35,531 nucleotides of DNA, from contig CAILBF010000017.1 of assembly GCA_903832395.1 (NCBI GenBank), positions 1 to 35,531 on the forward strand, read 5' to 3'. Position numbers and translations under genes: made by a program. Source of the stretch: an uncultured Actinomycetes bacterium (lineage in GTDB: Bacteria > Actinomycetota > Actinomycetes > Nanopelagicales > Nanopelagicaceae). Below are positions 2,611-5,551 of this stretch, piece by piece (position 1 is the stretch's first letter; the number at the start of each line of letters is the position of its first letter). The notes below the pieces were generated by a model, which saw nothing but the letters and a program-made list of their open reading frames with translations, was not told where the DNA came from and searched no databases.

Positions 2611-2632
2611 AACTCCTTGTAAACTTACCTGC

Positions 2633-2710
2633 ATGCAATCGATTATCACCTGGTTTTTCACACGTAACCGGATAGTTGATTTTTGCTTGTCAACTTCTTG
2701 CAGCTGCTGA
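2633..2710 (+). CDS. candidate Cys-rich leader peptide MQSIITWFFTRNRIVDFCLSTSCSC, upstream of cysK
   Basis: ATG 2633, TGA 2708-2710, 25 codons, three Cys codons in the last eight positions. TAAACT -10-like hexamer (2620-2625) lies 7 nt before the ATG. Located directly 5' of cysK-cysE. Confidence 0.65.
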   Translation: MQSIITWFFTRNRIVDFCLSTSCSC

Positions 2711-2752
2711 TTTTTTCTTAATCAGTTTTAAACCTGCAGTTTTTCATCAACT
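2696..2752 (+). promoter_or_regulatory. candidate cysK attenuator region with mutually exclusive pairings
   Basis: CTGATT(2707-2712)/AATCAG(2720-2725); TTGCAG(2698-2703)/CTGCAG(2734-2739) followed by TTTTT; AGTTGAT(2674-2680)/ATCAACT(2746-2752) competing with TCAACT(2690-2695). No folding program was run. Confidence 0.4.
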
Positions 2753-2768
2753 ATTTCTAGGGAGAATT

Positions 2769-3695
2769 ATGAGAATTTATAACAGCATTACAGAGGTTTT
2801 TGGAAACACCCCTTTAGTTCGCATCAATAAGCTAACTGATGGCGCACAAGGAAACGTCTATGCAAAGTTGGAGTTCTACAACCCAACATCTTCGGTGAAA
2901 GACCGTTTGGGAATTGCAATGATCGATGCCGCTGAAGCAAGTGGCGCACTAAAGCCGGGCGGAACAGTTGTTGAGGCAACATCGGGCAACACTGGTATCG
3001 CTGTGGCAATGGTTGCAGCCGCGCGTGGCTATAAGTCCATTTTCACGATGCCAGAATCGGTTTCAAAGGAGCGCCGCAAACTTATTCTGGCCTTTGGTGC
3101 CGAATTAGTTTTAACTCCAGCGGCTGAGGGCATGAAAGGCGCCGTAGCTGCAGCTGAAAAACTAAGTGATTCCGGCGCAGTTTTAGTTCGCCAATTTGAA
3201 AATGAGGCAGGCCCCGCAATCCACTATGCAACAACTGGCCCCGAAATTTGGCGTGATCTAGATGGGCAAGTCGATGCATTCATCTCAGGAATCGGTACCG
3301 GGGGAACTATTACCGGAACTGGCAGATTCTTAAAAGAGAAGAATCCAGGAATTAAAGTCTTTGGTGTTGAACCTGCGGCATCGCCAATTTTAAATGGCGG
3401 CGCACCTGGACCGCACCCACTTCAGGGCATTGGAGCGAACTTCATTCCAAATATTCTCGACCGCACTGTCTATGACGAGATTTTGGATGCAACTGCAGAT
3501 GATGCAATGAAATATGCGCGTAGAGCTGCTGCTGAAGAGGGAATCCTGGCTGGAATCTCATCGGGTGCAACGTTGTGGGCAGCTACTGAAGTTGCCAAAC
3601 GCCCAGAGTTTGCCGGAAAAAATATTGTTGTAATTGTTGCATCATCTGGTGAGCGTTACCTGTCAACGATCCTGTATCAGGATTTAGCTGAGTAA
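2769..3695 (+). CDS. cysK: cysteine synthase (O-acetylserine sulfhydrylase)
   Basis: Start [22 protein letters not shown] at 2769 after [23 protein letters not shown] lysine motif, [20 protein letters not shown]. Confidence 0.96.
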
Positions 3696-3696
3696 A

Positions 3697-4203
3697 ATGA
3701 TCTCTAGAATATTTGAAGATCTCGATAACGCTCTGACTAAAGATCCAGCGGCTAGAAATCGTCTTGAAGTTTTACTGGCCTACCCAGGTGTTCATGCAGT
3801 GTGGGGTTTTCGCGTAGCTCACTTCCTCTGGCGAAATAACTTAAAACTTATCGCTCGTATTTTCTCTAGCTGGGTGCGCACTGCGACCGGAATTGAAATC
3901 CATCCTGCGGCAACGATTGGGCGTCGATTCTTCATCGACCATGGAATGGGCGTAGTTATTGGCGCAACTGCCATCATTGGTGACGATGTCATGATGTATC
4001 ACGATGTGACGTTAGGGGCCCGTTCATATGTGAAAGGTAAGCGCCACCCAACCATTGAAAATAACGTTGTTATCGGCGCAGGAGCCAGAGTCATCGGCGA
4101 CATCACTATTGGCCATGGCGCACGTATTAACGCCAATGTGGTCATTACAAGGGACATACCAGCGCAAAGCACGCTAGATAGCAGTGAATTCTTCGTTATT
4201 TAA
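3697..4203 (+). CDS. cysE: serine O-acetyltransferase (short EpsC-type)
   Basis: Left-handed beta-helix hexapeptide repeats; [43 protein letters not shown]; starts 1 nt after cysK stop. Confidence 0.95.
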
Positions 4204-4246
4204 TGAGTTAACACGGCCGTAACCTGCCTTTGCAAGAATGCTGGCC

Positions 4247-5551
4247 ATGTCACTAGATGCCGATAAGCAACAAGAGTTCGTTCTACGAACAATTGAAGAG
4301 CGCAACATTCGTTTTGTGCGTTTATGGTTCACCGATGTTTTGGGCTTTCTAAAGTCAGTTGCAATCGCACCTGCCGAACTCGAGAACGCATTTGATGAGG
4401 GCATTGGCTTTGATGGTTCGGCAATCGAAGGCTTTGCTCGCGTTACTGAATCTGACATGTTGGCAAAACCAGATCCCTCAACTTTTTCAATTTTGCCCTG
4501 GCGCACTGAATCACCTGGGGCCGCGCGCATGTTCTGCGACATCACCATGCCAGATGGAACACCTTCTCCGGCCGACCCTCGTAATGTCTTGCGTCGCATT
4601 TTAGATAAAGCTGCAACTATGGGCTACACCTGTTACACCCATCCAGAGATTGAGTTTTTCTTATTTAAATCAATGCCAGAAGTTGGCGTCGCACCAGCTC
4701 CAGTTGATCAAGGCGGCTACTTCGATCACACTCCTGCAGTTGTAGGTCACGACTTCCGCCGACAGGCAATTACTTTGCTTGAGGCAATGGGAATCTCCGT
4801 GGAATTTTCACATCACGAAGGTGGACCAGGTCAACAAGAGATTGACTTGCGCGATGCTGACGCGCTAACAACGGCCGATAACATCATGACCTTTCGACAT
4901 GTCATCAAAGAGGTCGCGATGGATCAAGGTTTCCATGCATCTTTTATGCCAAAGCCTTTTACTGATCATCCGGGCAGTGGAATGCATACGCACGTATCGC
5001 TATTTAAGGGCGAAGAAAACGCTTTTTATGATGCAAAGGCCCAGTACAACTTATCTAATGTTGGTCGATCTTTTATCGCTGGCATTCTCAAACATGCACC
5101 TGAAATTACTGCGATAACTAATCAATGGGTGAACTCGTATAAGCGCCTGCATGGCGGAGGAGAGGCACCGGCAGTTATCAACTGGGGACCAAGTAATCGC
5201 GGAGCACTTGTGCGTCTTCCCATGTACAAGCCAGGCAAAGAGAACTCAACGCGCATTGAATTTAGATCACCGGATACTGCATGTAATCCATATCTTGCCT
5301 ATGCCGTTATGTTGGCAGCTGGACTGAAAGGCGTAGAAGAAGGCTATGTATTGAGCGATGCAAGTGATCCAATCTCACTTCCAACCGATCTCAATGAGGC
5401 AATTCTACAAATGGAGAAAAGCGCACTTGTGCGTGAGACGTTAGGCGAGCATGTATTTGAGTATGTGCTTCGCAATAAACGCGCTGAATGGCGAGATTAC
5501 AGTCGCCAGGTGAGCGCTTACGAATTAGACAGGTATTTGCCGGTTCTATAA
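4247..5551 (+). CDS. glnA: type I glutamine synthetase
   Basis: VRLWFTDVLGFLKSVAI, GFDGSAIEGFARVTESDM, PEIEFFLF, SGMHTHVSL, NRGALVRLP, EFRSPDTACNPYLAYAVM. Upstream in-frame ATG at 4238; start MSLDADKQ (4247) preferred. Confidence 0.95.
   Translation: MSLDADKQQEFVLRTIEERNIRFVRLWFTDVLGFLKSVAIAPAELENAFDEGIGFDGSAIEGFARVTESDMLAKPDPSTFSILPWRTESPGAARMFCDITMPDGTPSPADPRNVLRRILDKAATMGYTCYTHPEIEFFLFKSMPEVGVAPAPVDQGGYFDHTPAVVGHDFRRQAITLLEAMGISVEFSHHEGGPGQQEIDLRDADALTTADNIMTFRHVIKEVAMDQGFHASFMPKPFTDHPGSGMHTHVSLFKGEENAFYDAKAQYNLSNVGRSFIAGILKHAPEITAITNQWVNSYKRLHGGGEAPAVINWGPSNRGALVRLPMYKPGKENSTRIEFRSPDTACNPYLAYAVMLAAGLKGVEEGYVLSDASDPISLPTDLNEAILQMEKSALVRETLGEHVFEYVLRNKRAEWRDYSRQVSAYELDRYLPVL

Follow-up and report, generated by a model that had tools for sequence, protein, structure and literature searches.

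What governs expression of the cysteine synthesis genes cysK and cysE in this Nanopelagicaceae genome, and what is the role of the short reading frame that precedes them? In the 35,531-nt stretch of DNA analysed here (the window), cysK (2769-3695, + strand; cysteine synthase A, NCBIfam TIGR01139, 434 bits against a cut-off of 351) and cysE (3697-4203, + strand; serine O-acetyltransferase, NCBIfam TIGR01172, 223 bits against a cut-off of 211) lie between nadE (915-2576) and glnA (4238-5551), with cysE beginning one base past the cysK stop codon. The 192-nt gap between nadE and cysK contains a 25-codon leader ORF (2633-2710, + strand) that runs from an ATG at 2633 to a TGA at 2708-2710, translates as MQSIITWFFTRNRIVDFCLSTSCSC, and is conserved in frame, peptide and position. 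It carries Cys at codon 18 (TGC, 2684-2686, + strand) and at codons 23 and 25, which form the stretch TGC AGC TGC (2699-2707, + strand) adjoining the TGA. The cysK start lies 58 nt 3′ of the leader ORF end, across a G-poor, pyrimidine-rich spacer that is unalignable among relatives (2711-2759, + strand) and the cysK Shine-Dalgarno (SD) sequence GGGAG (2760-2764, + strand), which is AGGGAG or AGGAG-like in orthologues. An earlier note on this DNA gave correct coordinates for the ORF, its Cys codons and a TAAACT box 7 nt upstream, and read the ORF as a Cys leader of cysK-cysE, kin to other actinobacterial Cys leaders and distinguished by interspersed Cys codons, a reading that the analysis supports. 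Our preferred answer, to which we assign a probability of roughly 0.78, is a leaderless cysteine-codon attenuator of cysK-cysE, that is, a cis-acting sensor, with Rho and the nascent peptide as a guess at its output.

Judged by its conservation, the small ORF is real, far beyond chance. Orthologues of cysK in the genus were gathered from 60 relatives and their upstream regions inspected. The earlier note had proposed that orthologues without the frame or its C-terminal Cys codons would count against a leader; the finding survived, as 18 of the 19 genus orthologues whose upstream sequence could be read have an equivalent peptide before cysK. The genus leaders share the consensus M-x-SIITWLFTRNRVVDFCLSTSCSC, and two start with GTG, L005 (read by eye) among them. 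In the sole exception (L004), exactly the leader and spacer are gone. A degenerate DNA pattern for FTRNRxVDFC had 42 exact matches across ~85,000 genomes (264 Gb), against ~0.1 expected from base counts. All 42 are followed by cysK (39 identified by script, the other three by eye), and nadE was scored upstream in 40. These matches are all in actinobacteria-titled records, mostly metagenome assemblies and several of them Candidatus Planktophila. The Planktophila-like contigs of L181, L185 and L208 stand in records titled Bifidobacterium breve and Streptomyces griseus, which are probably mislabelled metagenome assemblies.

Among 24 distinct genus leaders, the whole peptide has pS 0.57 and pN 0.11 (pN/pS 0.19), and the core F-T-R-N-R-[IV]-V-D-F-C (codons 9-18; 2657-2686, + strand), a near-invariant peptide with free synonymous codons, has pS 0.59 and pN 0.04 (pN/pS 0.065). 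The low pN against high pS points to selection on the peptide, more than on RNA alone. Such purifying selection on the peptide sequence would also be expected of a small peptide that is secreted or acts in trans and regulates nothing in cis. That explanation is very improbable, given that the exact pattern matches are tied to cysK without exception, the ORF is predicted to be leaderless, its terminal Cys codons resemble those of known cis-acting Cys leaders, and motif relatives stand in leader position in nearly all strong matches inspected.

The cysteine-attenuator explanation draws on the Cys codons themselves. Cys18 is present in 24/24 genus leaders, as TGC every time, Cys23 in 22/24 and Cys25 in 23/24, and across the 56 cysK leaders collected the majority of Cys fall at positions -1 and -3 relative to the stop. 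Cys codons of the genus leaders are almost all TGC, compared with 50% TGC in coding sequence (the window plus one complete relative); we attach no p-value to this bias because orthologues are not independent. In sister genera, Cys18 is mostly replaced by Gly and the stop-proximal Cys are kept, and most leaders contain only 2-4 Cys, fewer than polycysteine leaders; both the replacement and the low count weigh against a cysteine sensor.

The leader appears to have its own promoter. TAAACT (2620-2625, + strand), its putative -10 box, sits 7 nt 5′ of the leader ATG, and nearly every one of the 56 cysK leaders has a TANNNT box 6 or 7 nt 5′ of its start codon. Because of this fixed spacing, the transcript is predicted to start at or next to the start codon and thus to be leaderless, as the earlier note had supposed. 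In L004 (G040:C40), the same box, TAGAAT, lies 7 nt ahead of cysK itself; this locus is probably a natural leader deletion that yields a leaderless cysK, and its arrangement therefore supports the predicted start site. Between nadE and the leader promoter, a perfect inverted repeat is present in the sequence, GTTGCGAA-TAG-TTCGCAAC (2580-2598, no strand assigned). Its genus form is TTGCRAA-N3-YTNGCAACTCGC (alignment of ten genus loci), its position is kept in L002-L039, and GCAACT[CG]GC always begins 39-41 nt before the leader start (24 loci). The earlier interpretation of this element (~2580-2598) as a nadE terminator is doubtful because no T-run follows it and its position just upstream of the promoter is fixed; it looks like a candidate operator or -35 element instead. 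A similar TTYGCAANTNGCG stretch occurs upstream of the leader promoter in sister genera.

Relatives of the peptide extend through the class, in front of other genes. A model of 14 genus peptides has matches in 113 of 151 family genomes (E up to 1), and its strong matches are sister-genus cysK leaders of the form W-x-FTRRRVIDFGRxxSCxC. A broader model has matches in 226/297 class genomes (E up to 0.1), and most of those inspected read [L/F]TKRRxVDFCRxxSxxC and precede rhodanese, DUF4395, carbonic anhydrase or symporter genes. The class leaders are named in NCBIfam as NF042933 leader_Ms5788A, NF042934 putative leader peptide (cis_reg_atten) and NF042936 leader_Ms4527A, and all 20 class leaders tested match NF042933. 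In profile-profile comparisons the genus cysK leaders gave E = 6e-11 against the class leaders and 6e-14 against the family-wide cysK leaders. The model used to assemble the class set contained cysK leaders, which favours the profile match; the NCBIfam matches are independent of that model. FTRNRIVDFCL aligns with the whole NF042933 core TKRRxVDFCR in the profile comparison, with two basic positions differing. Rhodanese or DUF4395 leaders in other species of the genus match NF042933 with E down to 1e-7, and the best Planktophila cysK leader reaches 16 bits (E = 0.0069). The window peptide falls below the curated NF042933 score (at least 45 bits) and matched no NCBIfam leader model, NF042933 and NF042939 included, at E up to 10. 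Pfam held no family for any of the leaders, an Rfam search of 2500-2900 returned no family, and a literature search with the exact motif gave no match.

Several loci show the range of genes behind these leaders. In L073-L076, L079, L087 and L159 (genus or family members), the gene behind a same-family leader is a rhodanese that has an apparent signal peptide, and in L073 and L074 the leader-linked rhodanese is followed by a Sulf_transp (YeeE/YedE) transporter. The complete genomes G039, G087 and G120 encode the rhodanese-type leader and have no cysK orthologue. Leaders with the same motif also precede carbonic anhydrase and sodium:dicarboxylate symporter genes (L145, L152, L158, L129 and L147), for which a link to cysteine is not obvious.

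The window leader has the features of a Cys-codon leader in the broad sense, namely a short ORF, stop-adjacent Cys codons, a cysteine operon downstream and conservation by descent, and would work in the manner of the actinobacterial Cys-codon leaders (Seliverstov 2005; Shell 2015; Canestrari 2020 as cited). As it failed the curated cut-offs of the named families, we file it as a divergent new leader of this broad kind; on these sequence comparisons, the peptide is an uncatalogued outlier among actinobacterial cysteine leader peptides. With the NF042933/NF042934 families it shares the core [F/L]T[RK]xRx[VI]DFC, stop-adjacent Cys codons, a leaderless start (predicted here) and sulfur genes downstream, and it differs in having RNR in place of RRx, Leu in place of the Arg after it and W-x-F at the N-terminus, and in preceding cysK-cysE rather than rhodanese or DUF4395. 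Cys leaders ahead of cysK have a precedent in NCBIfam, the Rv2334A family (NF042939). From the gene numbering we take the Rv2334A tag to denote the Mycobacterium tuberculosis cysK1 locus, and NF042939 to be the mycobacterial cysK1 leader. This family would likewise stand before cysK, in the same regulated operon type, but its model does not match the window peptide at E up to 10. Among class members of other families with a readable cysK upstream region, two (L237 and L242) have a candidate leader, and that of L242, a possible relative, matches NF042939 leader_Rv2334A only at E = 0.39. Seliverstov et al. 2005 (PMC1262725) described Cys leader peptides of Mycobacterium, Propionibacterium acnes and Bifidobacterium with no conserved terminator, and suggested Rho. 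Those leaders share with the window a short ORF, Cys codons near the stop, a following cys operon and a pyrimidine-rich stretch; they have runs of Cys codons whereas those of the window leader are interspersed, and Nanopelagicales lie outside their coverage. Cysteine-responsive leaderless sORFs of M. smegmatis, for which PMC9031893 and PMC13236596 cite Canestrari 2020, share with the window a leaderless start (predicted here), Cys-codon sensing (inferred here) and downstream sulfur genes. As cited there, they have consecutive Cys codons, unlike the codons at 18, 23 and 25 of the window, and act by translation attenuation, whereas no masked ribosome-binding site is predicted in the window.

How a stalled ribosome might reach cysK was addressed by RNA folding; all folding results are predictions, and the orthologous loci are not independent. 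The complementary segments listed in the earlier note are present in the window (2674-2680 with 2690-2695 or 2746-2752; 2707-2712 with 2720-2725; and 2698-2703 with 2734-2739, followed by T5), and the sequence containing them folds with an MFE of -30.8 kcal/mol (z -1.76), a value equalled or bettered by 11 of 200 shuffles. Under transcription attenuation of the trp type, the hairpin at 2698-2739 and its T5 would be an intrinsic terminator set by ribosome position. The window hairpin does fold, at -11.1 kcal/mol with the T-run behind, and pairing between the leader tail and the spacer is slightly above shuffles in the genus. Across homologues, however, a terminator-like hairpin with T-run was found in 12/56, the window among them, against 15 expected in shuffles. 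A conserved intrinsic terminator for cysK leaders was rejected on this count, most orthologues having none, and since actinobacterial Cys leaders have also been reported without conserved terminators (PMC1262725), a trp-type switch at this locus is improbable.

Under translation attenuation, as in the mycobacterial polycysteine type, leader RNA would pair with the cysK ribosome-binding site and a Cys-stalled ribosome would free it. PMC13236596 cites this mode of control for cysteine genes of M. smegmatis, and the window offers a possible pairing of AGTTGAT (2674-2680) with ATCAACT (2746-2752), immediately 5′ of the SD. Opening the SD of the 56 cysK leaders costs 4.25 kcal/mol free and 3.9 once a ribosome has stalled on the final Cys codon, against 5.45 for shuffled spacers in the free state, and the gain on stalling (0.34) is close to that in shuffles (0.24; p = 0.27). 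In the window itself the cost is 2.95 free and 3.21 stalled, and within the genus cognate leaders and SDs pair no better than permuted ones (p = 0.81). SD masking relieved by stalling was thus rejected for cysK leaders, whose SD is already more open than in shuffles. The same test can detect unmasking, because DUF4395-linked leaders of this family, used as a control, show a gain: their mean opening cost falls from 6.7 to 3.8 kcal/mol on stalling (6.0 to 4.5 in shuffles), and within the same family their median gain is 1.3 compared with 0.34 for cysK leaders (p = 0.026). Individual DUF4395-linked leaders with predicted unmasking upon a stall at the last Cys codon include L154, L138, L122 and L090. 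Masking is therefore a predicted point of difference between the window leader and DUF4395-linked leaders of the NF042933/NF042934 type, and although their behaviour lends it some plausibility, translation attenuation of cysK is unlikely.

Comparisons of cognate with permuted partners were null for the most part in the genus. Pairing of the whole leader with the spacer is better for cognate than for permuted partners in the genus (p = 0.038) and over all genera (p = 0.0004), the latter value being confounded by composition differences between genera. A hairpin of codons 22-25 and the stop with the spacer is somewhat better than shuffles in the genus (z -2.6 for energy), but cognate partners do no better than permuted ones (p = 0.36). 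Leader-tail/spacer hairpins occur at 2698-2739 in the window and in the sister-genus loci L069, L070 and L094-L097, and their sequences differ by clade. From this weak excess in modelled pairing, a structural role is possible. The alignment and folding proposed in the earlier note thus bore out conserved Cys codons, a conserved frame and the window hairpin; its stems, and with them the competing segments as a fold switch, were not conserved among relatives, and neither terminators above chance nor SD masking emerged in the 56 homologues.

With these two standard routes absent, Rho-dependent termination in the G-poor spacer is our leading guess for the downstream step. Genus spacers have a C/G ratio of 2.3 and 64% pyrimidine, whereas 102 control upstream regions average 0.97 and 50%. 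There is also a rho gene. This composition supports Rho weakly, because G-poor spacers are common to all leader classes, the DUF4395-linked class included. A 58-nt spacer is also short for Rho loading.

The cysteine-codon attenuator would operate as follows. RNA polymerase would start at or next to the ATG at 2633, so that the mRNA lacks a 5′ UTR, and the 25-codon leader would be translated while it is being transcribed. With ample Cys-tRNA, codons 18, 23 and 25 would be read, translation would terminate at the TGA, and cysK-cysE would be held down. With scarce Cys-tRNA, the ribosome would stall at the stop-proximal Cys codons and cysK-cysE expression would rise. We guess that the stalled ribosome shields the spacer, poor in G and rich in pyrimidine, against Rho-dependent termination or RNA decay, and that the conserved FTRxRxVDF nascent peptide may assist this protection. 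The conserved peptide, frame, promoter spacing and operon, the homology to known Cys leaders and the absence of the two standard output routes are computational observations. The sensing half would follow from conservation and from homology to mycobacterial relatives, and the cysteine-sensor reading is favoured because same-family leaders precede sulfur genes, namely rhodanese, a sulphur transporter and DUF4395.

Plain codon counting accounts least well for the motif that the peptide carries before its Cys codons, and the presence of this motif across the class hints that the nascent chain itself acts. If so, FTRxRxVDF in the exit tunnel would pause the ribosome, and regulation would depend on the peptide plus Cys-tRNA supply, an added element compatible with the cysteine-attenuator explanation. 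The near-invariant amino acids and free synonymous sites of codons 9-18 are consistent with such arrest, and so is the finding that all of 42 class-level leaders keep one Arg and the Asp while their codons vary. The motif may also be kept for slowing translation just enough for Cys-codon sensing, and we hold arrest as a tentative suggestion, less probable than its alternatives taken together. In its general form, [F/L]T[KR]xRx[VI]DF would be a nascent-chain pausing element, lying in the exit tunnel by the time the ribosome arrives at the Cys codons, with peptide and Cys-tRNA shortage jointly tripping a switch whose outputs differ by gene, a proposal that is likewise speculative. If true, the family would be a modular cysteine arrest peptide and not a set of plain codon-counting attenuators, with SD unmasking as the output before DUF4395 and another route before cysK.

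As a whole, the leader, conserved across relatives, very probably lets the cell switch cysK-cysE on when cysteine is short, and widespread small-genome freshwater bacteria very probably control cysteine synthesis via a 25-codon leader. The leader tracks the sulfur strategy of the lineage, preceding cysK-cysE where cysteine is made; in relatives without cysK it stands before a rhodanese and a sulphur transporter. Because the peptide is so strongly conserved ahead of its Cys codons, a general question about actinobacterial Cys leaders becomes testable: whether the peptide is read besides the codons.
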